A stretch of 64,000 nucleotides of DNA, taken from contig JANQQU010000033.1 in the NCBI GenBank assembly GCA_028284905.1, forward strand, positions 62,001 through 126,000, written 5' to 3'. The position numbers were made by a program, and so were the translations under genes. Source of the DNA: Calditrichia bacterium (GTDB taxonomy: Bacteria > Calditrichota > Calditrichia > RBG-13-44-9 > J075). Shown one piece after another: positions 4,086 through 32,072 of this stretch (position 1 is its first letter; each line of letters opens with the position of its first letter). The notes below the pieces were generated by a model that saw only the letters and a program-made list of their open reading frames with translations, did no database searches and was not told the origin of the DNA.

Positions 4086-5927
4086 TTATACTGCTTCATC
4101 CGAAGCAATTTCGCTGATAATCGGTTCGGCTTCCCGATTATGATGATTGGAAAGGGTAAAATAAAACTGGGTGCCTTCCCCCAATTTTGAATGGCACCAG
4201 ATTCTGCCGCCATGGCGCCGCACCAGGGTTTTTACATAGGCCAACCCCATTCCTTCGCCGGGCACATTCTGCTGACCGGCGCGGCTGAATGGCTCAAATA
4301 CTTTCGACATATCTTCCAGGGATATTCCCCGGCCATTATCGCTGATGCAATACATTACTTCGTAATCTCTCTGTTCGCCGCTAATCTTAATCTGCGGGCG
4401 GCGGCCTTCTTCCCGGTAATTAATCGCGTTAACGAGAATATTCCCGATCATTTGCTCCAATGAGGTTGGGTCCGCAGTAACATTTGGCAGGTCGCCAATG
4501 ACGATTTCGATATTATGGGAATCAATTTGATGGGCCAGGCTATCGAGGATTTTCTGCAAAAGCTCGCGCACATTAATCTGTTCAAAGCGCAATTCCCGGC
4601 GTCCCAGGCGGGAAAGTTTTAGCACAGCATCAATCAAAGAGCCCATACGGCTGGCCGAGGAATCAATAAATTGCAATGATTCGGGAATATCTTCTGTCAG
4701 GATATTGCGGATTTCCTGAATGGCCGGATCCTCATCATCGGACAGACGCTCAGTGAGCATTTCACTTAATTCTCCTACAGAATGTCGCAATTCCCCGGCA
4801 AACCCCTTGATATTTACCAACGGCGCCCGTAAGTCGTGGGAAACGATATAGGCAAAGCGTTTCACCTCTTCATTGGCCCGCATTAAATCTTCAGTGCGTT
4901 CGTTCACCCACATTTCCAATTTTTCATGCGCGGCATTCGCAGCGGTTTCCACCTTCTTTCGTTCGGTAATATCCCGTACGATGGTAATGATGCCCATTTC
5001 GCTGCTTTCCTGCTGAACGAGCATATCCACCCTTTCGCCGATAAACATCCGGTTATCGGAACTGAGGCAATTGATTTCAAATGGCTTGGTTTGCACATCA
5101 CCGTTGCGGGATGGCGTTGGTAAAATCACTTCGGATTCTTCGAACAACATCGAGCGGTTACGGCCCATTACTTTTTCCGGTTGATAGCCAAACAATTTAC
5201 TGAAGGCCGGATTAACCATGATGATTTCATAATTCATATCGGTAAAAACGACGGCGTCGGGGATTGATTTAAACATCGCCCGGAACTCAGCAGTAATTTG
5301 ATGAAGGGCTGCTTCCACACGCTTGCGCTTTTCAATGTCTTTTTGGAAGATATAAAGAATGGCGGCGACCAAAATAGCCAGCAGACAAGAGACCAAAATG
5401 AGAATATTTAACGACTGCCATTCGCTGGTTAACGTAGTGGAAAGCGTGTTGATTTTATCCCGGCAGCCATCGATCTCCCGCTTGACCATATCGGCGGCGT
5501 GGGTCATTTCCTCATGAAAAACGATGTCCAAACGACGATTTTCGCGCAGGGATGAATCCCCCTGCTGCATCACTAAAAAGCGATCGGACATTCGCTGTAC
5601 AGAGAAATCGATTGCGGTTAGTACCGAGTCTATTTCTTCCACGGATTCATGGGAAAAGGACCGTATTTGGTCGAGGGTTTGCTGATATTCATTCCAGGTT
5701 TGCTGCCAGCTTTCCGGACCGGGGAGCGGATCCTGATAGATCATATCCCCGAAGCCCCGAATATTTTTTTCCAGAAGAATCAGATCATTAACGATTAAAA
5801 GGTGAGTCTTCAGCGTTTCCTGGTGTGCCGTAACATTCCGGATCAGAGTGATACTCCAGACAATAAAAACAAGTGCGCAGCCAGCAATCAGCGCCGACCA
5901 AAATGGGGATGTCCAGTATCTTTTCAT
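4086..5927 (-). CDS. Membrane PAS-domain sensor histidine kinase
   Basis: 613 aa. A transmembrane helix at about residues 11-31 is followed by a helical periplasmic region of about 140 aa (CHASE3-like in size and character), a second helix at about 173-193, a PAS domain at about 210-330, a coiled coil, HisKA with the phospho-acceptor in VSHDLRAPL (His364), and an HATPase domain with N box (GNILVNAINY), DNGRGI and GEGMGLAYV. All catalytic boxes are intact. Its start overlaps the stop of the upstream receiver-kinase gene by 4 nt, implying translational coupling. It is the last gene of a three-gene two-component operon. No DNA-binding output is encoded here, so the system probably signals by protein-protein phosphotransfer. 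Confidence 0.92.
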   Translation of the reverse strand: MKRYWTSPFWSALIAGCALVFIVWSITLIRNVTAHQETLKTHLLIVNDLILLEKNIRGFGDMIYQDPLPGPESWQQTWNEYQQTLDQIRSFSHESVEEIDSVLTAIDFSVQRMSDRFLVMQQGDSSLRENRRLDIVFHEEMTHAADMVKREIDGCRDKINTLSTTLTSEWQSLNILILVSCLLAILVAAILYIFQKDIEKRKRVEAALHQITAEFRAMFKSIPDAVVFTDMNYEIIMVNPAFSKLFGYQPEKVMGRNRSMLFEESEVILPTPSRNGDVQTKPFEINCLSSDNRMFIGERVDMLVQQESSEMGIITIVRDITERKKVETAANAAHEKLEMWVNERTEDLMRANEEVKRFAYIVSHDLRAPLVNIKGFAGELRHSVGELSEMLTERLSDDEDPAIQEIRNILTEDIPESLQFIDSSASRMGSLIDAVLKLSRLGRRELRFEQINVRELLQKILDSLAHQIDSHNIEIVIGDLPNVTADPTSLEQMIGNILVNAINYREEGRRPQIKISGEQRDYEVMYCISDNGRGISLEDMSKVFEPFSRAGQQNVPGEGMGLAYVKTLVRRHGGRIWCHSKLGEGTQFYFTLSNHHNREAEPIISEIASDEAV

Positions 5928-7060
5928 GAAATATGTTTCACCCTGTCCGGTATCGTGAAGTAAAATGTAGCGCCTTCACCATAGCGGGATTTAACCCAAA
6001 TTTCGCCGCGATGATTTTCCACAATTTTCTTGCAGATCGCCAGTCCCAGCCCATCGCCGGTGAATTCCTTGCTGTGTAAGCGCTGGAAAATAGCAAAGAT
6101 CTTTTCACCATAGCGAGGATCGATACCGATACCATTGTCCTGCACACTAAATTGCCAGGCATTTTCCTGCTTTTCCGCGCGGATATGCACTTGTGGCTTG
6201 CGATCACGACAATATTTGATGGCATTATCGATGAGGTTTTGGAAGAGGCGGTTTAATTGCCGTTCATTGCCGCGAATAGTTGGCAGCGCTTCGTAGGTAA
6301 CTTTGGCGCAGCGTTTATCGATAGTCGCTTTTAGGTCCTTAACGACATTATCGACCAGGGCACCGCTGTCGATATCCTTCAGCTTAATCCCCTTAAACTT
6401 CACCCGGGAATATTCCAACAATCCCTCAATGAGGCGCTCCATCCGCTGGGTGCCCTCAATGATGTAACCGAGGAATTCATTGCCCTGTTCATCCAGATCT
6501 TCTCCGTAAGTTTCTTCGATATACTTGGCAAATCCCTGAATGGTATGCAAAGGCTCTTTCAAATCATGCGAAACGACATAAGCAAATTGCTGCAGTTCTT
6601 TATTGCTCCGCTCCAGTTCCTGGGCATATTTTTTTAACTCCTGCTGCATCCGGCGTTTTTCCGCTTCCATACGGTATCGTTTTACCGATTCTTCAATAAC
6701 GATTGGCAACAGGCGAAAATACCGGCCGTCGATATCTTTCTGGATATAATCGTAAGCGCCTTTTTTCATCGACTCAACGGCAATCTCTTCATTACCGGCG
6801 CCGGTCAGCATGATTACCGCCGGGCGAGGCTCGTTGGTCATTAGTTCTTCCAGCACCTGCAAGCCATTCAACTCCGGCATCTGGTAGTCGACCAGCAGCA
6901 TATCGAAAGGACCTTCTTCGCTAAACATCCGTAGCCCTTCCCGACCATTGGGGGCAATGGAAATGAGGTATCCCTTTTTGGCCATGCGCTTTTCAAAAAG
7001 ACGCACCAGGCCGGGATCATCTTCCATGTAAAGGATTCGAATCGGGGTGCCGTTTTCCAT
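5924..7060 (-). CDS. Receiver domain-histidine kinase hybrid
   Basis: About 378 aa from the preferred start. Residues 1-120 form a CheY-like receiver with acidic pocket YMEDDP, phospho-acceptor Asp58 (LLVDYQMPELNG), Thr86 and Lys108. A coiled coil follows, then HisKA with VSHDLKEPL (His165) and HATPase with DNGIGI and GDGLGLAI. There is no transmembrane helix, so it is cytoplasmic. This receiver-first layout is like bacteriophytochrome-associated and chemotaxis-like accessory kinases. I chose the ATG at 7060 because AAGGA lies 8 nt upstream; a longer reading frame to 7138 runs through the preceding gene. It sits between an Rcp1-like receiver and a membrane kinase in one operon. Confidence 0.9.
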   Translation of the reverse strand: MENGTPIRILYMEDDPGLVRLFEKRMAKKGYLISIAPNGREGLRMFSEEGPFDMLLVDYQMPELNGLQVLEELMTNEPRPAVIMLTGAGNEEIAVESMKKGAYDYIQKDIDGRYFRLLPIVIEESVKRYRMEAEKRRMQQELKKYAQELERSNKELQQFAYVVSHDLKEPLHTIQGFAKYIEETYGEDLDEQGNEFLGYIIEGTQRMERLIEGLLEYSRVKFKGIKLKDIDSGALVDNVVKDLKATIDKRCAKVTYEALPTIRGNERQLNRLFQNLIDNAIKYCRDRKPQVHIRAEKQENAWQFSVQDNGIGIDPRYGEKIFAIFQRLHSKEFTGDGLGLAICKKIVENHRGEIWVKSRYGEGATFYFTIPDRVKHIS

Positions 7061-7061
7061 A

Positions 7062-7499
7062 TTAATCATCCTTTTCCGGTACTTTAACAATGGAAAGAAA
7101 AAGGCCGAGTTTACGAATAGCTTCGCAGAACTCATCATATTCTACCGGTTTGGTGATATAGACATTGCAACCCAGTTCATAACATTTTGAAATCTCGTGC
7201 GGCTCCTCCGTCGTCGTGAGAATAACCACGGGAATATGCTTGGTGCGTGCATCGGATTTCATCTGCTTTAAGACCTGGTAGCCGCTCATAACCGGCAAAT
7301 TTAAATCCAGTAACACCAGCGAAGGCATCGGCTGTTGAAAATCCCGTTGAAAAAAGTAATCAAGGATTTGTTGACCATCGGAAAACTTGATGATTTCGTT
7401 AAAGATTTTCGCTCTGCGTAAATTCTTTTCAATCAAACGGGCGTGCCCGGCATTATCTTCCACCAACAAGATGGTAATGACCTTATTTCCCGGCATCAT
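7062..7499 (-). CDS. Single-domain response regulator (Rcp1-like)
   Basis: About 145 aa from the double ATG at 7499/7496. It is a lone receiver with VEDNAGHARLIEKNL, phospho-acceptor Asp65 (LLDLNLPVMSG), switch Thr (VILTTTEEP) and Lys117 (YITKPVE). The spacing and insert match the Rcp1/phytochrome-partner group, whose members accept phosphate from kinases and have no output domain. The frame stays open to 7652, so starts at 7529, 7565 or 7652 are possible, but the added residues are not conserved in style and none has a well-placed Shine-Dalgarno site. It is the first gene of the operon; its stop abuts the next gene's start. Confidence 0.85.
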   Translation of the reverse strand: MMPGNKVITILLVEDNAGHARLIEKNLRRAKIFNEIIKFSDGQQILDYFFQRDFQQPMPSLVLLDLNLPVMSGYQVLKQMKSDARTKHIPVVILTTTEEPHEISKCYELGCNVYITKPVEYDEFCEAIRKLGLFLSIVKVPEKDD

Positions 7500-7923
7500 A
7501 ATACTGGATTTCTCATGTTCTGTAAACATCTTCGATTCACTGATTAATATGGGTTTATTTCTCATTCTCCGGAGAGGCAGGCGTATTTCCCGAATATATT
7601 GGCTTTCGGCAGATGAAAACTGGCAAAAGCGAGGTCCATATACCTTCTTCATCCTCTCGCGAAGGTGCTCCTCTTAACCATATTATTTACACCTTTCTGA
7701 AAGAGAAAATCGAAAAGTAAATCACAAATCTGGTTTCAAAAATTTAGAATGTCATTTTTCGTTGTCAGCACGATCATCGCTTAACGAATCGTCACCACAA
7801 ATCACTTTGAAATTCGCCGGGAAGAGACCATATTATTTATTCTATTAATTTCTCGCAGAAAAGGTTCCTGAAGGGCATTAACTGCAATAAAAACAACAAC
7901 TTTATATCAACAGAAATGACACT
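7500..7923. other. Intergenic region between divergent two-component operon and exonuclease gene
   Basis: If the receiver starts near 7499, about 420 bp are non-coding. They should hold divergent promoters for the leftward two-component operon and the rightward exonuclease gene. I see no clear palindromic operator, repeat or RNA gene. The possible longer N-terminus of the receiver (to 7652) covers part of it. Confidence 0.35.
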
Positions 7924-8676
7924 ATGAAAATTCTCTCATGGAATGTTAACGGCATCCGCGCCGCACAAAAAAAAGGGTTTGCGGATTTTATGACGGAAAG
8001 TAACCCGGACATCATATGCCTTCAGGAAACCAAGGCACGTCCGGAGCAAGTAGAACTGGATCTACCCGAATATCACCAATACTGGAATTCCGCAGAGAAA
8101 AAGGGTTACTCTGGCACTGCTATTTTCAGCAAAGAAAAACCCTTGTCCGTGAAAAATGATATGGACATTCCTGAGCACGATACCGAAGGCCGGGTGATCG
8201 CTGCCGAGTATAGCGACTATTACCTGGTGACAGTTTACACACCGAATGCGAAACGCGGCTTGCTCCGGCTCGATTATCGCAGCGAATCCTGGGATCCGGA
8301 TTTTCTGGCTTATATGAAAGAGCTGGAGAAGCATAAACCGGTAATCTTTTGTGGGGATCTGAACGTCGCCCATACGGAAATCGACCTTGCCAATCCAAAA
8401 TCCAATCGCAAAAATGCCGGCTTTACCGATGAGGAACGGGCAGGATTTGATAATATTCTCGCGGCGGGATTTATCGACACTTTCCGGGAATTTGAAAGCG
8501 GCGGTGGTCACTATACCTGGTGGAGCTACATGGGCGGCGCCCGGGCCCGGAACGTGGGCTGGCGGATCGATTATTTTTGCATTTCCCCGGCATTAAGACC
8601 GCGCTTGCAATCGGCATTTATCCTGCCTGATGTGATGGGATCGGATCATTGTCCGGTGGGGATTGTTTTGGATTAA
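7924..8676 (+). CDS. xthA: Exodeoxyribonuclease III / AP endonuclease
   Basis: 250 aa, normal length for the ExoA/XthA branch of the EEP nuclease family. It cleaves the DNA backbone 5' to abasic sites and has 3'-5' exonuclease activity in base excision repair. Landmarks are SWNVNGIRA (metal-binding Asn), CLQETKA (Glu), the GYSGTA loop, [20 protein letters not shown] (Asp/Asn), GWRIDYF and the terminal GSDHCPVG with the catalytic Asp-His pair. All catalytic positions are present. The final codons GGATTAA form part of a large inverted repeat shared with the end of the converging alanine racemase gene. Confidence 0.95.
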
Positions 8677-8781
8677 AACCGTTGTTCGTTGTTTATCGTT
8701 GTTGTAGAGAAAATTCATGAATTTTCTCTACAATGAATCGACAAAACCGTATTAACGAAAAACAAACAACGGTTTTAATCC
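8670..8781. repeat. Nested inverted repeat joining the ends of two converging genes
   Basis: The outer arms are a perfect 17-bp inverted repeat (8670-8686 and 8765-8781) that includes both stop codons, so xthA and alr end in the same GGATTAAAACCGTTGTT. The arms continue imperfectly as runs of GTTGTT/CGTT words. A perfect 32-bp palindrome, 8702-8733 (centre AATTCATGAATT), sits inside. The whole would fold as a long hairpin in RNA from either strand and probably serves as a bidirectional terminator. Confidence 0.8.
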
Positions 8782-9944
8782 ACAATTATACGGGTAATTT
8801 CATTGTTTAACCGGGCGGTGACCTCGTAATTGATGGTACCGCTCATCGCCGCCAGTTGATCGATGGTAATTTCTTCTTCCCCCTGTTTGCCAATCAATAC
8901 TGCCTCATCTTCCAATGCCACATCAGGGATATCGGTAATATCAACCATAATCAGATTCATACAAACTCTGCCGCGTAACGGGGCGCGCTTTCCTTTGATC
9001 AAGACATAACTCTGGTTGGAAAGCATGCGGTCGTAGCCGTCCGAGTATCCGATTGGTAGTATGGCAATGCGGCTGTCCCGGGTGGTTTTATACGTGCGGC
9101 CATAGCCGATGGTATTATCTGCCGGAACTGTCTTAATCTGACTGATCCGCGCTTTCCAGGTTAATACCGGCTGCAAAGTTTCGGAGATTTTTTCACCGAA
9201 TTTTTCCTTGTAGGAAACCATTGTTTCCCGGGAAGGCCAGAGGCCATATTGCCCGATGCCGAGGCGCACCATGTCAAAGTGAGTTTCCGGGAAAAGCATT
9301 GCCGCTGCGGTAGAGGCTGCGTGTTTTTTCAGAATCGGAAATCCATTGCTTTGTATCAGGCGGACCAGCTGATTAAAACAATAGCGCTGGTAATCGGCGT
9401 AATCATGATTGGTGGTATCTTCGATGTTCGCGAAATGCGTATAAACCGCTTCCAGCAGAATGCGCGGGGTGTGTTTCAACTCTTTTAAAAACCATTCCAG
9501 CTCTTCCTGGGCAATACCCTGGCGAAATGTGCCGGTTTCCAGCTTAAGATGAATTCGCGCCAGTTTATACAGGGAAGCAGTAATTTCATGAAGACGCAGC
9601 AAAGTTTCCCGGTTGTATACCACCAGGCGAAAATTTTCTTCGACTGCTTCTTCCAGGCGGCCAATGGGTACATGTCCCATAATGAGGATGTTCTGATTAA
9701 ACCCCGCACGGCGTAAGCGCAAGGCTTCTCCCAGGGAATGCACACAGAAGGAATCGACCTGATTTTTCATCGCCAGGCGGGCGATCGACTGCCAACCATG
9801 ACCATAGCCGTTGGCTTTTATCACCACGGAAAATTCCGGGCGGGCCCCAATAATTTTGCGAAAAAAACGAATGTTGTTGGCGTAGGCGCTTTCGGAAAGC
9901 TCTATCCAGGTATTGTTCAGATATTTATGTTCAATATTCGTCAT
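8775..9944 (-). CDS. alr: Alanine racemase
   Basis: 389 aa, full length. This PLP enzyme interconverts L- and D-alanine for peptidoglycan. The PLP lysine is in VIKANGYGHG (Lys43). The catalytic tyrosine of the second subunit face is in IGYGRTY, followed by ILPIGYSDGYDR and the CMNLIMVD strand. The N-terminal TIM barrel and C-terminal beta domain are both complete. It is preceded 18 nt upstream by the barrel-like gene on the same strand, so the two are probably co-transcribed. No other cell-wall gene is adjacent. The 3' end lies inside the inverted repeat 8670-8781. Confidence 0.95.
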   Translation of the reverse strand: MTNIEHKYLNNTWIELSESAYANNIRFFRKIIGARPEFSVVIKANGYGHGWQSIARLAMKNQVDSFCVHSLGEALRLRRAGFNQNILIMGHVPIGRLEEAVEENFRLVVYNRETLLRLHEITASLYKLARIHLKLETGTFRQGIAQEELEWFLKELKHTPRILLEAVYTHFANIEDTTNHDYADYQRYCFNQLVRLIQSNGFPILKKHAASTAAAMLFPETHFDMVRLGIGQYGLWPSRETMVSYKEKFGEKISETLQPVLTWKARISQIKTVPADNTIGYGRTYKTTRDSRIAILPIGYSDGYDRMLSNQSYVLIKGKRAPLRGRVCMNLIMVDITDIPDVALEDEAVLIGKQGEEEITIDQLAAMSGTINYEVTARLNNEITRIIVD

Positions 9945-9962
9945 TAGAACTTCAACAACTCA

Positions 9963-11765
9963 CTAATTATACAATTTCCAGTCGATGCCAAAACGAAAAA
10001 TCAGTAGCCCTTCCAGCGTGTCATTAATAATGAAATAATCTTCCGAGAGCAGATTTTCCCAAAAGAAGAACAGGGTTGCATCCCGGAAATTCAGTTGCAC
10101 CCGTCCATCCAGTAAATTGTAGCGGCCATTTTCACCACCGTCCGGCGCATAATAGTTTAGCAGCCGGCTATAATTAACCGTTTGAAAATCGCCGATATAA
10201 TGCCAATTAATAATACCATCAATACTGATAGCATTATTAAAGAGGCTAAATGTGGTCATTGCAGATAAATTATTGTTGATTTGGGGCGCAAAAGTGGAAT
10301 TGTATTTATCGTTAAATGTAAAATCTTCCCGAATGCGGAAATGCCACAGTTTGAATCCAGTTTGTACCCGCACCCCCGGGTTTTCGTAAGTGGTTTTTTC
10401 CCACTCCCAGAGGCTCCCCCCGGTATTCAGCACAGGATAATCATTTGACTGCAAAAAGAAAGGTTCGATTTGCAGCCAGGTCGCAGATTTTTTCCCGAAG
10501 CGTAAAATACCGCGTACACCACTTTCCGAAATCATATTTCTCTGCCAGTAGGGCGCTCGCGTGGAGTCAAATATAATCGTTCGCCACAGCATCGGCACCG
10601 GGCGATTTTTCCGAAAGGCCGCTGCACCAATCTGAACGCCATCATGCACTTTCTTTTCCAAAGAAGCACTGAAGTGCGCTGCCCCATCCTGCTCGTTATG
10701 CAAGGCATAGCCAGCAGCCAGGGAATATTGCCAGTCACCCTTTTCTCGTTCCAGAAAAGCACTGGCTTTGCCATAAACCTCGCTGCGGCGAAACCAGATA
10801 CGGGTCGGCTTATTACGGGCATAGTTGCTGAAAATTTTCAGACCAGCCTGACTATTACCAAATTTCCGGTAATAGCGGGCATCCAGATCCACGGTGAGGT
10901 AACGATTTTTTCGCGCTTCATCATTGCTGCTCCAGCTTAGGTCTGCTATGCTACGAAAAGCCGGCACAATCACTAACGAGTCCTTTTCACCGAGTTTTCC
11001 CTGCAGGGTGAACCAGGCAGTATTGCCACTCAATTTGAATTTATCCCGAACGCCAGTACTTAATTCCGGTTGACTTAATGAAAATTCCGGGAGCATACGA
11101 TAGCGCTGCCGCACGTGCCAGAAGAACAGGTCCGTATGCCAGCGTTTACTCCATTCGCGATGATACTGAAAGCGATAGGTGTTTACTTTCGTACTGCTAA
11201 AATTGCTCTCCTGGGAGCCATCAGTCAAATAGTTAGTTCCGGAAAGGCGGAAGTAGTCGGTTTTATTTAAACGGCGGCTAAATGAGATATCCACAAAGGA
11301 AAGGTTGATAACATAATCCTGGGAAAAAACGATACGGGTCAGGGGTTTTTTGGTTGCCGGGGCCAGTGGGGCAATATAATCGGTATTACTGCCGAGCGAA
11401 TGCCAACGATCGCCGGACTGATAATAAGGCAACCATTGCGCATTCCAAAATCCATTAAAGGGATCATAGAGAATTTTGCCTCCATACTCAATTTCCCGGA
11501 ACCCCGCTGGCATTCCCCGGTATGCATTGGTAGTCAGGCGACCCCGTTGCAGCAAGGAAAGCGGGAGGAGATCCGAGCGATAAAAGGATAGCTCTTCTTC
11601 AGTCAATATGCCATCGATGCTTATTTCTGCAGATTTATTTACTGGTTTCTTTTTAGCGGGTTTTATCGATGGTGCAGTACCCGTTGTATCTTCAACGGTC
11701 GTTTGCCCCCAGATTGATAATGGGAAGATTAATACGAATAAGATCAGTAAAGAAAAACGTTTCAT
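9963..11765 (-). CDS. Probable outer-membrane beta-barrel protein (putative porin-like)
   Basis: About 600 aa from the ATG at 11765, which gives a clean signal peptide (MKRFSLLILFVLIFPLSIWG-Q). The frame is open upstream to 11888, but that extension spoils the signal. After a Lys/Pro-rich linker and a short N-terminal domain, the remaining 450 or so residues are alternating aromatic/polar strands with many Trp and Tyr and short turns, ending FRFGIDWKLYN. This is the pattern of a large outer-membrane beta-barrel like the Bacteroidetes 'putative porin' families. The substrate is unknown. It is probably co-transcribed with alr, 18 nt downstream. Confidence 0.7.
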   Translation of the reverse strand: MKRFSLLILFVLIFPLSIWGQTTVEDTTGTAPSIKPAKKKPVNKSAEISIDGILTEEELSFYRSDLLPLSLLQRGRLTTNAYRGMPAGFREIEYGGKILYDPFNGFWNAQWLPYYQSGDRWHSLGSNTDYIAPLAPATKKPLTRIVFSQDYVINLSFVDISFSRRLNKTDYFRLSGTNYLTDGSQESNFSSTKVNTYRFQYHREWSKRWHTDLFFWHVRQRYRMLPEFSLSQPELSTGVRDKFKLSGNTAWFTLQGKLGEKDSLVIVPAFRSIADLSWSSNDEARKNRYLTVDLDARYYRKFGNSQAGLKIFSNYARNKPTRIWFRRSEVYGKASAFLEREKGDWQYSLAAGYALHNEQDGAAHFSASLEKKVHDGVQIGAAAFRKNRPVPMLWRTIIFDSTRAPYWQRNMISESGVRGILRFGKKSATWLQIEPFFLQSNDYPVLNTGGSLWEWEKTTYENPGVRVQTGFKLWHFRIREDFTFNDKYNSTFAPQINNNLSAMTTFSLFNNAISIDGIINWHYIGDFQTVNYSRLLNYYAPDGGENGRYNLLDGRVQLNFRDATLFFFWENLLSEDYFIINDTLEGLLIFRFGIDWKLYN

Positions 11766-12050
11766 AGAGAAATAGCGTCTAAAAGAAGTAGAAGGTTTAA
11801 ACGACAATAGTTGCTTGAAAATTAGCCTTGCACAATAATTTATCAGCAGGAAAATGAATATACACCAAAGCAATGGCGATGAAAACAATAATTTCAGACA
11901 TCGCTGCCGCTGCAGAAATGAAAAAATCGGTTGGAATGACCGGTCAGCGGTTTTAGTATAATGCGCGGATAGCGATACGATTAAGTATTCCAGGACATAT
12001 CCTATACTTGTTTATGTTGATATCGTAAGCGTTGTTCCCGGGGAGATTTT

Positions 12051-25941: not shown

Positions 25942-25980
25942 TAAAGCGGGTAAATTCACGTAGGAATTTTACCCGCTTTA
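25942..25980 (-). terminator. Hairpin, second terminator of the HEAT operon
   Basis: Perfect 13-bp stem TAAAGCGGGTAAA / TTTACCCGCTTTA (25942-25954 and 25968-25980). Read leftward, it is followed by ACTTTTT, a usable U-tract. Confidence 0.65.
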
Positions 25981-26000
25981 GGAGGTTACAACTAAAAAAC

Positions 26001-26053
26001 GCTGGCGTTAGGGCCCACTGCAAAATCCGCCAGCAATATTTTGCAGTTTTTTT
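26001..26053. terminator. Overlapping hairpins acting as a bidirectional terminator
   Basis: GCTGGCG (26001-26007) pairs with CGCCAGC (26028-26034) and, read leftward, is followed by GTTTTTT. ACTGCAAAAT (26017-26026) pairs with ATTTTGCAGT (26038-26047) and, read rightward, runs into seven T. The two stems overlap and exclude each other. Confidence 0.65.
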
Positions 26054-26217: not shown

Positions 26218-27015
26218 TTAATAAGTATCGAGAATATTCTCGATAATGTCTACCGCCCGGGGATCGCCACTTTTTCCAAGCAATTGCAGCGCTTTCTTAC
26301 GAACGCCAATATGGTAATCTTTACCGGCGGCCCGACCGAGAATGTCCAACGTACGGTCATTATCGAGGTAATAGCGCAGCATCCGAACTGCTTCGTAACG
26401 CATCGCGGTGCTTTTGTCGTTGCGAATAACATCTTCCAATGCATCCAGCGCTGCGGTTTCATCATTACTGCGGCGAATCATCGAACGGAGTGCCTGCAGG
26501 CGCATCTCTTCCTTTTCGGAAAGATCGCGGTAAAAACGACTATGCCCATCTTGGTAGTCGAAGTCAAAATTAAAACCGTCGATGTTGATTTCCGGGAGGT
26601 CAATGTCGAGCGACGGCAGATCGATATCCAGCATTGGCAGGTCGATATCGATGGCCGGGAGGTCGATATTAATATTAGGAATATGAATATTGAGATCTTC
26701 CAAATCAGCCAAATCCATTTCCAGTCCTTCTAACTCTTCCAGACCAGCCAGTTGTATTTCCAGATCTTGCAGCAACCGATCTTCATCAAACTGAAAATCA
26801 AGGTCATCGAGATTATTCAACTGAATTTCCAGGTCCTCGAGCATATCTTCCAGACCTTCCAGATTCACTTCGATGTCATCCGGCAGGTCATGGTCGTCGA
26901 TAATAATTCTCGAATATTTTTTCTTTTTTTTGCCTTCCGGGTCTGCACTAAATGCCGGCACAGCCAACGCGCCCAAAAAACAAATAGCTAATAATAACGT
27001 TATCATTTGTTTCAT
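26218..27015 (-). CDS. Exported acidic HEAT-repeat protein with IDLP heptad repeats
   Basis: 265 aa: signal peptide (MKQMITLLLAICFLGALAVP-AFSA), a Lys-rich patch, then an acidic Leu-rich stretch (about 45-110). Five 7-residue units of the form x[IL][ND]IDLP follow at residues 114-148 (NINIDLP, AIDIDLP, MLDIDLP, SLDIDLP, EINIDGF). A C-terminal HEAT domain of about three repeats occupies 165-265 (RMLRYYLDNDRTLDILGRAA, then VRKKALQLLGKSGDPRAVDI). HEAT repeats bind proteins; the heptad region could form a beta-solenoid-like or extended acidic surface. It is the last gene of the sigma/anti-sigma operon and is followed by tandem terminators. Function unknown; envelope location inferred from the signal. 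Confidence 0.82.
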   Translation of the reverse strand: MKQMITLLLAICFLGALAVPAFSADPEGKKKKKYSRIIIDDHDLPDDIEVNLEGLEDMLEDLEIQLNNLDDLDFQFDEDRLLQDLEIQLAGLEELEGLEMDLADLEDLNIHIPNINIDLPAIDIDLPMLDIDLPSLDIDLPEINIDGFNFDFDYQDGHSRFYRDLSEKEEMRLQALRSMIRRSNDETAALDALEDVIRNDKSTAMRYEAVRMLRYYLDNDRTLDILGRAAGKDYHIGVRKKALQLLGKSGDPRAVDIIENILDTY

Positions 27016-27188
27016 TGCGGAATCCTCCGATAAGTACTTTCTAAGAATATTTCAAACAGTCTATTTTAAGCTAGTTTTGATCTTGAGAGTTACCTCTCGC
27101 TACGGTGGTGCTAATTGCGGAAATTTAAGATACGGCAGCAGTACGATAAGGTTACACCCGATCGCAACGCTGCCAACATTTTTCCAAC

Positions 27189-28745
27189 CTATTCCGCACC
27201 GGCAATTTCGATAAGCGCATCAATTGCGCGTGGATCTTCCGCTTCGCCAAGCAACATAATCGCCCGCTTCCGGATGCTGCGGTCCTGATGGGTTTTCCCA
27301 ATTTCAATCAATTTTGGAATGCCGGCATTATCATCCATTTCCAACAACATATTGAGCGCATTTAATTTCAGCTTGCGGTCGTCGCTGTCTTTAATGGTTT
27401 CTTCCAGCACTGCAACGGCTTTATCTGCCGCTAAATGGGCGAGCACCTCCACCGCTGTTTCCTTAATCTCCGGGTTGGGATGGGTGCGAATGACGCTGGT
27501 CAGGGTAGACAGCGGATCCCCGATTTCCTGGGAAACCATTAGTTCGATCGCTTCTTCCTGCACATCTTCATCGCGGTCATTAAACGCGGTGTGCTTGAGA
27601 ATCCCCGGCAAATCGCTGCGTTTGTATGATGCTAATGCGTCAAGGGCTTCTTCCCGCACATCCGGGCGGCGATGATTTTCCAGAATGGCCTTCAAGGTTG
27701 CATAGGAAGCATCGTCTTTGCGATAAGCGATTGCGCTAACCGCCTCTTCCTGCACATCGACTTTCGGATCTTCGAACACAACTTTCTTCAATGTTGTCAG
27801 GGATTTTTCCCCGGGATAGTGAGCCAGCGCTTCCACGGCACTCTCGCGAATATCAACATCACGGCTCTCCGTTGCAAAAGAGATGAGGGCAGTTTCTGCT
27901 GTCGGCAGCTCAGATTGCCCCAATGCCTCCACGGCTTCTTCCCGCACATCCGGGGAACGATCTTCCCGGGCGGTGCGCACCAGAATTTTCACTGCTCGTA
28001 CGTCCTGCTGCCAGCCGAGCCATTCTGCCGCTTCCTCCCGCACGTCAGCGGTTTCGTCGCTTTTTAAGACTTCATCCAGAAAGGGAATTACCTCGGAGGC
28101 GTTATCATGCATACCGATAATGGAGATCAGTTGCTCCCGCTGGCGTTTTTTCCGGGCATCCGCATACATGCGTTTAAACACCGGCAGACTGGCGGACTGC
28201 TCCACATGCCCTACCCAGTAAACCACTTGTCGGTCAAAATCGAACGGCAGGGCCATACTGACGATGGCAATATTGTGCGCATCGCCGAGGCGTTTGCTTT
28301 TCCCCCGGTACTGAAACATCAGGGCAATTTCCTGCGGTACTTTTTTCCTGGTCGCTCGAAGTCCCTTCGCTTCCTGCAGGGCATTTTCTGCGGCCATGCG
28401 CAGTTGCTCTGCTTCCGAAACTCCCGACGATGCATCCGGCTGCTTCTTTAAGATAAGCGATAGCGAGGGCTGATCGCTCTCGTGATGGCCATGCATATAG
28501 GCAAAAATATCCCCATTACTCCAGATAAATTCATCCACACCCATATCGCGGGTAATGCTGGTGGCAATCCAGAATTCCCGGTTTGGCGATGTTTTTTCAG
28601 CATCCTGCAACGCCCACTGCCACTTTTCCGCAAAGGCTGTATTCGCATCCGGTACCGTTTTGATAGTCTGCTGAGAGAATAGACTGCCAGAAAGGAAAAT
28701 CAGTAAAATCGTTATTAAGTAAAGGTATAAAGATTGAGATTTCAT
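27189..28745 (-). CDS. Exported HEAT-repeat protein
   Basis: 518 aa from the ATG at 28745, which has GGAG 7 nt upstream and gives a signal peptide (MKSQSLYLYLITILLIFLSG). The frame extends to 28859, but that adds an unlikely leader. Residues about 25-200 form a non-repetitive domain. From about 210 to the C-terminus there are about ten HEAT/PBS-lyase-type repeats of about 31 residues with the recurring helix DVREEAVEAL. These alpha-solenoids are binding scaffolds. It is the fourth gene of the sigma operon, 149 bp after the TPR-HEAT gene; a small CCCC-TA-GGGG hairpin lies in that gap. Confidence 0.85.
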   Translation of the reverse strand: MKSQSLYLYLITILLIFLSGSLFSQQTIKTVPDANTAFAEKWQWALQDAEKTSPNREFWIATSITRDMGVDEFIWSNGDIFAYMHGHHESDQPSLSLILKKQPDASSGVSEAEQLRMAAENALQEAKGLRATRKKVPQEIALMFQYRGKSKRLGDAHNIAIVSMALPFDFDRQVVYWVGHVEQSASLPVFKRMYADARKKRQREQLISIIGMHDNASEVIPFLDEVLKSDETADVREEAAEWLGWQQDVRAVKILVRTAREDRSPDVREEAVEALGQSELPTAETALISFATESRDVDIRESAVEALAHYPGEKSLTTLKKVVFEDPKVDVQEEAVSAIAYRKDDASYATLKAILENHRRPDVREEALDALASYKRSDLPGILKHTAFNDRDEDVQEEAIELMVSQEIGDPLSTLTSVIRTHPNPEIKETAVEVLAHLAADKAVAVLEETIKDSDDRKLKLNALNMLLEMDDNAGIPKLIEIGKTHQDRSIRKRAIMLLGEAEDPRAIDALIEIAGAE

Positions 28746-28894
28746 CTTATACTCCGTTTTTGTTTGTAAGACTGTCAGCCAAGAAGTTTGTTTTTTCCAG
28801 TGACAGCTTAGCAAGCAACTGCCCGCTATCGGCTGTTCACCCCTATGGGGCCACTGCAACTCATCCGTCAGAATTTTTATCCCGGCTGAACGGC

Positions 28895-30457
28895 CTAGTT
28901 AGATCCATCTTGTAAAATTTCCATTAATGCTTCCTGAGCCGAGGGAGAACCTATTTCGCCCAGGGCGCTGATTGCCGCTTTCCGGACCGGCAGACTGTCG
29001 TCGTTAGCAATAACATCTTTCAGCACGGCGATTGCCTTATCGCTCTCGGTTTCCCCCAGGGCATATACTGCCGCTTTTCGCAAAGTGGCATCTTTTTCTT
29101 TCTTCAGAATTGATGCTAATGCATTAACCGCCGCATCATTTTCAAAATCGCCGATTTTATACAACGCAGCCTTGCGGACCTTTGCAGATTTCGTCTGTTC
29201 CATAATTTCCAGAATGGCATCGACGTCCTCGACTTCATCCACATAGGCATAAAAGGCGGTTTGGGAGATGCTCTCATTGGCATGGGAGATGGCAATATTG
29301 CGAAGGAAGTTCAGCGATTCCCGATCATCGGCATCACCGATCGCATGCAATGCGGCTTTACCCACTTCCGGATTATCCGTGTTGCTGAAAATTTCCCGAA
29401 GCATCTTTCCGGCAGTCGGGCCGTCGACATCGGCAATGGCATAGAGGGCAGCCTTCCGTAACGAGACTTCACTATCGTTGAGTGCCACCTCTTTCAGCAC
29501 CTCCAGGGCATCTTCTTCCTGATGATTTGCCAGTGCATAAAGCGATGCTTTCCGCACTTCGGTTTTTGCAGAACTTTTCAACAAGGCCCGCAGCGCTTCA
29601 CTAGCTGCCGCCTGATCCATATCGCCGAGCGCATATACTGCTGCTTTCGCCAGCTCGCTGTTTTCTCCCATGCTCGCTTCCCGCAGTACCTGAACCAAAT
29701 TGGGATGGTCGTTGTTGCTCATAGCATACAATGCTGCTTTTCGGACCGATATTTCGTTATCGGAATTAAGGATTTCCACCAGGGCATCGCCCACATCATT
29801 TTCGTCGTGATCGCCGAGGGCATATACTGCTTTCTTGCGGATATCTTTGGACTCATCCGTTTTTGCAATCTCCAGCAGCATCGGGACGACAGCTTCATTT
29901 TCGAACTCACCAAGGACATAAACAGCCTTACCGCGAATTTTTTCGTTCTCCGCATTCTTATAGATGGCATGCACGGAGTTCAATGCTTTTTCGCCGCCAA
30001 TGTTCGCAATGGCATATAAGGTTGCCAGGGTCAGCTCTTCGTTGTCACTATCCCGAATCGCTTTAATCATCGGGCGATATTGATCCTTACCACTACGCAC
30101 CAATTGCTCGCCAATCCGCACCATGTTGGAACGGGCATGATCCGCATATTTGCTGGAGCGATGGTCGGATACGAACTCTTCATAACATTTAAAACTTGCT
30201 TCCAGATCACGCCCCTTCTTCTCCTCGGCATAGCAACGCCAGTAGCGGGCATCATCTCTCCAGGAACTTCGGGGATGGTTTTGCAGCAGCGCATCGAACT
30301 TGCTGACCGCTTCATCCCACTTTTCATCCAGCACCAGGTTATAAGCCTCCTGATAAATGGTGTAGGCTTCATCCTGATTGTCATTGTCCGCAAGGGCGCA
30401 GCTTAACAGCGCCATCAGAAGCAACATCGTTATCGCATTATTGATTATCTTAAACAT
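28895..30457 (-). CDS. Exported TPR plus HEAT-repeat protein
   Basis: 520 aa with an N-terminal export signal (MFKIINNAITMLLLMALLSC). It could be cleaved after ALA (residues 21-23) or lipidated at Cys20 (LLSC). Residues about 28-120 hold two TPR-like units of the BamD/YbgF kind (YQEAYNLVLDEKWDEAVSKF and ASFKCYEEFV). From about 125 to 515 there are about 12 HEAT repeats of 31 residues with the recurring phrase VRKAALYALG. The DNA is correspondingly repetitive. It follows the anti-sigma gene by 49 bp. A role as periplasmic scaffold controlled by the adjacent ECF sigma factor is inference. Confidence 0.86.
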   Translation of the reverse strand: MFKIINNAITMLLLMALLSCALADNDNQDEAYTIYQEAYNLVLDEKWDEAVSKFDALLQNHPRSSWRDDARYWRCYAEEKKGRDLEASFKCYEEFVSDHRSSKYADHARSNMVRIGEQLVRSGKDQYRPMIKAIRDSDNEELTLATLYAIANIGGEKALNSVHAIYKNAENEKIRGKAVYVLGEFENEAVVPMLLEIAKTDESKDIRKKAVYALGDHDENDVGDALVEILNSDNEISVRKAALYAMSNNDHPNLVQVLREASMGENSELAKAAVYALGDMDQAAASEALRALLKSSAKTEVRKASLYALANHQEEDALEVLKEVALNDSEVSLRKAALYAIADVDGPTAGKMLREIFSNTDNPEVGKAALHAIGDADDRESLNFLRNIAISHANESISQTAFYAYVDEVEDVDAILEIMEQTKSAKVRKAALYKIGDFENDAAVNALASILKKEKDATLRKAAVYALGETESDKAIAVLKDVIANDDSLPVRKAAISALGEIGSPSAQEALMEILQDGSN

Positions 30458-30506
30458 GTCTGCACTCCTTAGAATTCTTTCTTTTCAATCTTTTCTGCCG
30501 GTCGCC

Positions 30507-31310
30507 TTAAATTCGTGGCGCGCCGGATTTTCCTATGTCCTTTTTCTCCGGATTGCCCTGGTTAATTTCTTCCAGGTTGATCTTCAGGAGAATCCCCCGC
30601 CGGTCTACGCCGTGCCGGATCATCTCAATTGCGGAGAGATCTTCTTCGGCTTCCAGACTGGCAATTTGCAGCAGAATAATTTCCAGATCGGATACTAATT
30701 TCCGCAGCCGCTGCTGTCGTGGCTCTTTCAAGGCTTCCTTCAGATAGACGGCTTCCCGAACCAGGTTCCGGGAGGCTTTCTGATAGCCACTGAAATCCAG
30801 GCCATCCTGCGTGGCTTCATCTTCATCGATGGTTACTACTCCCAGGAGTAAAACCTTCGACTTTTCCAGATAGTTGAAAGTGCGGTCCTGCACCGCTGCG
30901 GCCTGTATCAGATCATTCTCTTTTTCAGGCGAAGTCAGGTTTCCCGGGATAAACAGATTTCTTCCCAGGAAGATACCAACGACCAGAATCGCTGCAGCTG
31001 CTACCACCCGGTAGCCCCACTGCCAAATCGGAGAGACCGGCATTTTATGAACATTTTTTGCGGTGTTGCCATTGCTCTCCGGCAGCTTTTCGGCAAGGCG
31101 ATCCCAGTAGCCTTCCCAGAACTCCGCCGAAGGCGCGGCTTGTTCCCGCTCATCCATGATCCGCAATGTTCCCTGCAGCCGCTTAAATTCCGCCTTACAA
31201 TCCGAACAGGATGCAAGATGCGCATCGAACCAGCGTTGATCCGCTGCAGTCAGCTCATTGTAAAGCGCGTCTACAAATAATGATTCACTTTTCCGGCAAT
31301 TTTCGTTCAT
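30507..31310 (-). CDS. Zinc-finger transmembrane anti-sigma factor
   Basis: 267 aa. Residues 1-50 carry an anti-sigma zinc finger of the zf-HC2 type (FDAHLASCSDCKAEF, His plus CxxC). A single transmembrane helix lies at about 100-118 (VVAAAAILVVGIFLG), leaving a ~150-residue periplasmic domain rich in helices. The arrangement fits an anti-sigma factor that holds its ECF sigma at the membrane until an envelope signal is sensed. It lies 21 nt downstream of the sigma gene on the same strand, the usual order for such pairs. Confidence 0.88.
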   Translation of the reverse strand: MNENCRKSESLFVDALYNELTAADQRWFDAHLASCSDCKAEFKRLQGTLRIMDEREQAAPSAEFWEGYWDRLAEKLPESNGNTAKNVHKMPVSPIWQWGYRVVAAAAILVVGIFLGRNLFIPGNLTSPEKENDLIQAAAVQDRTFNYLEKSKVLLLGVVTIDEDEATQDGLDFSGYQKASRNLVREAVYLKEALKEPRQQRLRKLVSDLEIILLQIASLEAEEDLSAIEMIRHGVDRRGILLKINLEEINQGNPEKKDIGKSGAPRI

Positions 31311-31331
31311 GGTATCATTCCTGTACTGTTT

Positions 31332-31904
31332 TTAAATATCGGCCTGATAAAACGCCAATTCTTTTTGCAGTCGCCGAATCGCCCGAAATAAAAGAGCTTT
31401 CACGGTGCCTTCGGCAATATCGAGTACCGCGCCAATTTCCTTCAGGGGCATTTCCTGGTAATGCCGCAGCACGAACACCGACCGTTCCCGGGCAGAAAGC
31501 AAATTCAACGCATTCTGAATATGAGTTTGAATACCGGCAGCTTCTACCTGTTTATCGGGCGATGTCTTTTGGGAATCCGGGGCTTTAATTTCCTGAATAT
31601 CCCGCGATGCTTCCTCATTGTTGATCGACACTGTACTCACCTGTTTCTTTCGTTTGCTATCGATATGGCAGTTAACGGTAATTCGATATAGCCAGGAGCT
31701 AAACTTGGCATCTCCGCGGAATTTCCCGATAAAACGCAGGGCACGGATGAAGACCTCCTGGGAAAGATCTTCTGCATCAAAATGGTTGCCGGAGAGGTCC
31801 AGCGCGAGGTAGTAGATCATCTGCTTGTATCTCTCTACCAGCGTGCGAAACGCTTCCATGTTCCCATTTTGTGCCTGTGCAACAAGTGCCTTATCTTCGA
31901 TCAC
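31332..31904 (-). CDS. ECF-type RNA polymerase sigma factor
   Basis: 190 aa. Region 2 has AEDLSQEVFIRAL and FSSWLYRITVNCHID. A linker of about 45 residues is rich in Gln and Ser. Region 4 has LSARERSVFVLRHYQEMPLKEIGAVLDIAEGTV (split here for reading: ARERSVFVLRHYQ, then EIGAVLDIAEGTVKALL). This is the ECF (group 4) layout with no region 1 or 3. It should direct RNA polymerase to a regulon that very likely includes its own operon. It is the first gene of a five-gene leftward unit: sigma, anti-sigma and three HEAT proteins. Confidence 0.92.
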   Translation of the reverse strand: MIEDKALVAQAQNGNMEAFRTLVERYKQMIYYLALDLSGNHFDAEDLSQEVFIRALRFIGKFRGDAKFSSWLYRITVNCHIDSKRKKQVSTVSINNEEASRDIQEIKAPDSQKTSPDKQVEAAGIQTHIQNALNLLSARERSVFVLRHYQEMPLKEIGAVLDIAEGTVKALLFRAIRRLQKELAFYQADI

Positions 31905-32072
31905 CGTCTCTGCCTTTTCACTTTATTTGATGAGTATGACGGGGCGCTTTTTGGAAAGGTTTACAATAGAAGTATATAATTTTTGAAATTCTTTTTTGCA
32001 GAGCTGCCGGTCAGCAGCATGTAACTATTGTACTAAGGTGACATCTAAAATGAAACCAAAATTGAGGCTGGC

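Follow-up and report, generated by a model that had tools for sequence, protein, structure and literature searches.

An operon on the minus strand of the window (the whole 64,000-nucleotide stretch of DNA analysed, which belongs to an 8.55 Mb genome of the phylum Calditrichota) encodes an ECF sigma factor, a membrane anti-sigma factor and three exported HEAT-repeat proteins, and is more than a product of chance: the order of its genes and its promoter have both been kept across phyla. From sequence, structural models and analogy, we think it reasonably probable that the operon encodes an envelope-stress circuit of the SigW/RsiW or RpoE/RseA type, in which the first of the exported proteins (HEAT1), and perhaps the second (HEAT2), would act as periplasmic partner of the anti-sigma factor. 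The evidence comprises the protein architecture, the gene order, the conservation of the promoter, the one-to-one co-occurrence of anti-sigma factor and HEAT1, a C-terminal signature in the anti-sigma factor and the fusion of an anti-sigma factor to HEAT repeats in a paralogous system.

Organization of the operon

Five open reading frames lie on the minus strand between 31904 and 26218, in the order ECF sigma, membrane anti-sigma, HEAT1, HEAT2 and acHEAT. The Pfam and NCBIfam domains (sigma-70 regions 2 and 4, zf-HC2, and HEAT_2 in each of HEAT1, HEAT2 and acHEAT) agree with the genes, order and strand given in the preliminary description. The features are as follows.

31938–31965, minus strand: predicted ECF-type promoter upstream of sigma, TGTAAACC-N16-CGTC; motif kept in related loci
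31332–31904, minus strand: ECF sigma factor, 190 aa, GTG start, SigW-like (Sigma70_r2 1.3e-18, Sigma70_r4 3e-15)
30507–31310, minus strand: membrane anti-sigma factor, 267 aa, RsiW-like (Pfam, PDB match, AlphaFold2)
30507–30554, minus strand: C-terminal periplasmic tail of the anti-sigma factor, candidate docking peptide (conserved terminal Ile/Leu)
28895–30457, minus strand: HEAT1, exported, 520 aa; signal peptide, BamD/YbgF-like TPR domain (about residues 29–127), HEAT solenoid (Pfam/NCBIfam)
27189–28745, minus strand: HEAT2, exported, 518 aa; signal peptide, alpha/beta domain (about 28–180), HEAT solenoid (183–516) (AlphaFold2)
27131–27156, minus strand: predicted second promoter of the same type, upstream of acHEAT, TGTAACC-N15-CGTA
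26218–27015, minus strand: acHEAT, exported, 265 aa; signal peptide, acidic heptad region, C-terminal HEAT_2 (Pfam)
26548–26694, minus strand: seven tandem 7-residue units of acHEAT, [LI][ND]I[HD][IL]Px type (sequence inspection)
25994–26041, minus strand: terminator-like hairpin 1, stems 25994–26007/26028–26041, GCTGGCG...CGCCAGC then GTTTTTT
25942–25980, minus strand: terminator-like hairpin 2, perfect 13-bp stem 25942–25954/25968–25980, then CTTTTT

A run of T follows each hairpin stem on the minus strand; the tandem terminators described earlier both exist, at 25942–26041, outside the interval to which they had been assigned (26218–31904). The description of the genes as one unit holds for the five genes in order and needs amending at acHEAT, which has its own promoter-like site at 27131–27156. 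Separate promoters between the genes had been named as a finding that would count against the unit, and a predicted one was found for acHEAT only; since it is of the same sequence type as that of sigma, the regulatory link is strengthened rather than broken.

The sigma factor and its predicted promoters

The sigma factor contains regions 2 and 4 without regions 1 and 3, the arrangement that defines ECF sigma factors, and scores 124 bits against TIGR02937 (sigma70-ECF; cut-off 42.9). Two NCBIfam SigW models match it at 2.9e-38 and 1.7e-34, with scores of 131.6 and 119.5 bits that lie below their equivalog cut-offs of 209 and 243; judged by these scores, the protein is related to SigW and is not an equivalog. 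The consensus of SigW promoters is TGAAAC-N16-CGTA, and with this as yardstick the predicted promoter looks SigW-like. The Bacillus subtilis SigW/RsiW pair resembles the present one in joining an ECF sigma factor to a zinc-finger, RsiW-like class I anti-sigma factor and, apparently, in promoter logic. It differs in that here the extracytoplasmic half of the anti-sigma factor is a four-helix bundle with a tail, that dedicated exported TPR/HEAT partners are present, and that the regulon is apparently tiny, whereas that of SigW comprises dozens of genes.

The motif TGTAAACC-N15/16-CGTC stands directly 5′ of sigma in loci from Calditrichota and in loci titled KSB1, Bacteroidia and Gemmatimonadota, and of 46 related loci, some of which come without upstream sequence, 27 carry the strict pattern there; Aminicenantes loci carry TGCCAACC variants. 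The acHEAT promoter is present where an intergenic gap exists (the window and equivalent sites in L032, L033 and L096) and absent from L038, where the genes abut. As the same motif occurs 5′ of sigma and separately 5′ of acHEAT, the operon is predicted to be autoregulated and to give more than one transcript.

Strict scans returned two matches in the 8.55 Mb source genome and 12 in 20 other genomes, eight of these being the sigma operon. With matches almost confined to the operon, the regulon of this sigma factor looks very small, and a broad regulon was rejected on the same scans. The only other strict match in the source genome (contig C52, 321664–321690; L144) precedes the gene for an ABC permease of MacB/FtsX type, and one in the related genome G003 (L142) lies upstream of a LolE-type permease. 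Motif sites were also seen upstream of a Toastrack DUF4097 protein in G097 and, in G229 (contig C4; L159), upstream of an exported 214-aa coiled-coil protein with a charged helix repeat of about seven residues (EARDxxE). A looser, intergenic match in the source genome (contig C39, 153181–153206; L153) precedes the gene for an exported fasciclin-type repeat protein, and several further matches sit within coding sequence. As a group, the extra intergenic sites are near chance, not above reversed-pattern controls, and serve as leads only.

The anti-sigma factor and its C-terminal tail

The anti-sigma factor consists of a zf-HC2/RsiW-like cytoplasmic domain (residues 3–75), a transmembrane helix (95–119), a periplasmic four-helix bundle (128–252) and a disordered tail (253–267) that ends in Ile. 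The zf-HC2 match scores 31.4 bits (cut-off 22.2), and RsiW (PDB 5wuq) matches with an E-value of 4.8e-8 and a TM-score of 0.74 on the target. The Hx3Cx2C motif of the class I, zinc-binding anti-sigma domain (ASDI) is present, with H31, C35 and C38 near-invariant. The protein presumably binds and inhibits its cognate sigma factor, as the conserved adjacent gene suggests. In an AlphaFold2 model built with 40 homologues the cytoplasmic domain, transmembrane helix and periplasmic bundle are confident, and the tail has a pLDDT of about 45–55. No Pfam model covers the bundle, and a fold search with it returned no significant match.

Of 45 distinct anti-sigma proteins, roughly 30–50% identical to that of the window, 35 end in Ile or Leu; each of the nine positions before the last has one of these residues in 2–6 of the 45. 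The background among other ORFs at the same loci is 29/261 (11.1%), and the partner proteins show a terminal Ile/Leu in 2/17 (HEAT1) and 0/28 (HEAT2) cases; the nominal binomial p for the enrichment is 4e-25, a value that ignores relatedness. With its variable, disordered sequence and single fixed hydrophobic end residue, the tail looks like a docking peptide, which could be bound by a TPR/HEAT groove or by a PDZ protease. Several Aminicenantes members lack this ending, as do the GWxTD-type paralogues described below, so that, if it is a docking element, it is not a universal one.

The exported HEAT proteins

HEAT1, HEAT2 and acHEAT each begin with a Sec-type signal sequence, recognized by inspection, and score 218.6, 154.4 and 43.8 bits against HEAT_2 (cut-off 27.7). 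The tandem antiparallel helical pairs that define HEAT repeats are present, and form a solenoid in the AlphaFold2 model of HEAT2 (mean pLDDT 89.4). HEAT1 had been described as a TPR and HEAT protein, and its N-terminus is indeed a TPR domain of BamD/YbgF type, in which W73, S102, A108 and G123 are invariant in all 53 HEAT1-type N-termini recovered.

HEAT2 had been called HEAT-only; the solenoid stands, and it is preceded by an N-terminal alpha/beta domain. This domain has no match among Pfam families or PDB sequences, and the matches of a fold search were confined to the HEAT part, the best in the PDB being alphaRep binders. Translation is assigned to the ATG at 28745, which has a Shine-Dalgarno-like GGAG upstream; the ORF reaching to 28859 is a mere upstream TTG extension. 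At 518 aa (27189–28745), HEAT2 is several HEAT repeats longer than most orthologues (about 365–400 aa), and that of L034 in G002 is likewise long.

The acidic heptads and HEAT repeats reported for acHEAT were both recovered: the protein has a strongly acidic N-terminal part (residues 25–165 hold 43 D/E versus 9 K/R), the consecutive units LNIHIPN, INIDLPA, IDIDLPM, LDIDLPS, LDIDLPE, INIDGFN and FDFDYQD, and a C-terminal HEAT_2 domain. A HEAT protein from another phylum (G045; L041, 10654–12879) has an acidic, Pro-rich N-terminal region (MPEIEFEFPEIDFP) that recalls these heptads, and looks like an acHEAT part fused to HEAT1.

Conservation across genomes

The gene-neighbourhood survey proposed in the preliminary description found the order kept in relatives, and not the lack of conservation that would have told against the operon. 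All five genes occur in order in four other genomes, namely the close relatives G003, G005 and G006 and the complete genome CP070758, titled Gemmatimonadota bin29, where HEAT1 is split into two ORFs. The four-gene core, lacking acHEAT, is present in many more genomes, both of other Calditrichota and of records that bear the titles KSB1, Aminicenantes, Acidobacteriota and Bacteroidia HBSIN02; phylum names outside Calditrichota are the titles of MAG records and are not always right. A contig of G006, for example, is titled Deltaproteobacteria yet groups in the window's own family, and the title Gemmatimonadota of CP070758 may be wrong too.

A full-length anti-sigma factor was found in 38 of 82 genomes of the KSB1-type phylum to which G229 belongs, and a HEAT1-type gene adjoins it in all 30 loci of that phylum fetched by the anti-sigma factor alone. 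Forty Calditrichota genomes were searched separately with an anti-sigma profile and with one built solely on the TPR domain of HEAT1. The strong matches to one profile fall on the same 13 places as those to the other, spread over 10 genomes (G000 C9 and C52; G002 C66 and C247; G003 C58 and C69; G005 C1; G006 C532; G016 C13; G018 C334; G019 C163; G021 C6; G032 C56), and neither occurs alone. On this distribution HEAT1 is the obligate partner of the anti-sigma factor, HEAT2 a core companion and acHEAT an optional output in few genomes, a ranking that replaces the earlier picture of three equal HEAT proteins. Each component is of a known kind; the open-licence literature searched yielded no description of sigma and zf-HC2, or of anti-sigma, combined with HEAT, nor of the periplasmic module and C-terminal signature of the anti-sigma factor, all of which are apparently undescribed.

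Paralogous systems

On contig C52 of the source genome (129001–149000, genes 7527–11938; L103), a sigma factor and a related anti-sigma factor are followed by an exported protein with TPR and GWxTD domains and by a CarboxypepD_reg-like protein. Operons of this type, also found in G003, G016, G019 and G002, share with that of the window the sigma factor, a related anti-sigma factor and an adjoining exported TPR (YfiO-like) protein; they differ in that a GWxTD domain replaces the HEAT solenoid on the TPR protein and in that their anti-sigma factors lack the terminal Ile/Leu. This replacement suggests that the conserved pair is the periplasmic module of the anti-sigma factor and the TPR domain.

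On contig C93 (104001–124000, genes 5474–9720; L043), a sigma factor is followed by an anti-sigma factor fused to HEAT and then by two LiaG/LiaX-like proteins. In the fusion (zf-HC2, transmembrane helix, HEAT) the HEAT repeats follow the membrane helix, and homologous sigma/fusion pairs occur in G003, G005 and G006. Together with the co-occurrence above, the fusion argues from sequence that HEAT/TPR solenoids act on the periplasmic side of anti-sigma factors of this family. The Lia/Toastrack proteins (DUF4097, LiaG, LiaX) are envelope-stress modules (PMC11237479), and resemble the present system as envelope-stress solenoids tied to a transcription switch, a coupling also seen in the C93 paralogue with its sigma factor, anti-sigma–HEAT fusion and two LiaG/LiaX-like proteins. 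In the five-gene operon, by contrast, HEAT/TPR solenoids take the partner's place; no DUF4097/LiaG protein was detected there by Pfam, whereas the C93 paralogue has one by LiaG/LiaX similarity.

A proposed circuit and its alternatives

In the favoured reading, the anti-sigma factor would keep the ECF sigma factor at the inner membrane through its RsiW-type zinc-finger domain. The input side would be the periplasmic four-helix bundle and the flexible tail with its terminal Ile/Leu, engaged by exported HEAT1, via its TPR domain, and probably by HEAT2; both genes lie directly 3′ of the anti-sigma gene, as rseB follows rseA. A change in the complex, for instance when stress-exposed envelope proteins titrate the solenoids, would lead to degradation of the anti-sigma factor; regulated proteolysis, the fate of RsiW and RseA, is the likeliest route. 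The freed sigma factor would then transcribe its own operon from TGTAAACC-N15/16-CGTC, yielding more HEAT proteins, and would transcribe acHEAT from the second promoter as an extra output. From complex formation onwards, the steps, with the physical binding, the direction of regulation, the signal and the protease, are what we infer by analogy. RsiW is cut by PrsW and then by RasP (PMC3498285); RseB binds the periplasmic domain of RseA, and cleavage by DegS needs the loss of RseB (PMC8103513). The Escherichia coli RpoE-RseA-RseB-RseC operon is alike in its order of sigma factor, membrane anti-sigma factor and exported gene(s), in its autoregulation and in facing the envelope, but its sequences are unrelated and RseB is neither a HEAT nor a TPR protein; with no RseB-family match among the five operon proteins in Pfam or NCBIfam, the likeness to RseB is one of position only. 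Of the earlier suggestion of a protein-binding or envelope-stress system, what stands is the envelope-stress type of system, a conserved one of sigma factor, anti-sigma factor and HEAT proteins; protein binding we infer.

HEAT1 could instead be a regulated product and not the regulator. It is possible, if rather doubtful, that all three HEAT proteins are outputs only, forming a periplasmic scaffold or holdase-like set, while the anti-sigma factor alone senses stress through its bundle and tail. The sigma-type promoter of acHEAT fits this, as do the weak motif sites 5′ of exported structural proteins (the charged-heptad coiled coil of G229 and the Toastrack DUF4097 protein of G097) and the broad binding ability of TPR/HEAT solenoids, alphaRep binders being the best PDB hits of HEAT2; however, the strict co-occurrence of HEAT1 and anti-sigma factor, GWxTD paralogues included, and the anti-sigma–HEAT fusion both point to direct partnership, for HEAT1 at least. 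DegS-type proteases recognize free C-termini through their PDZ domains. The tail, with a lone hydrophobic residue beyond a variable disordered linker, might accordingly serve as a PDZ ligand, drawing in a DegS/HtrA/Ctp-type protease in cis, with the HEAT proteins shielding the tail until solenoid release exposes it; DegS itself is switched on by misfolded-OMP peptides (PMC8103513). We regard this as a little more doubtful again, as no protease gene lies within the operon and TPR or HEAT grooves are equally able to bind the tail. The operon might, finally, be an accidental or lineage-specific one, in which unrelated HEAT genes happen to follow a sigma/anti-sigma pair of the ordinary kind, in a source genome where HEAT_2 is common (43 matches). 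This is extremely improbable and was rejected, because gene order is kept across several phylum names, the promoter is conserved and co-occurrence is one-to-one.

Implications

The arrangement is common to several bacterial phyla, and Calditrichota is a little-studied one. The favoured circuit would extend the range of ECF/anti-sigma systems by a separate kind of sensing half, and would offer a first way into how the envelope is monitored in the largely uncultured phyla Calditrichota, KSB1 and Aminicenantes. Which surface reads the signal is sharply predicted by the Ile/Leu ending of the anti-sigma factor, taken with its obligate TPR/HEAT partner. More tentatively, the operon may represent an apparently undescribed class of envelope-stress pathway, spread over several phyla, whose sensors are exported TPR/HEAT solenoids that grip the C-terminal Ile/Leu peptide of the anti-sigma factor and release it on meeting damaged envelope proteins; if that is true, a single binding surface would read ligand and switch alike.
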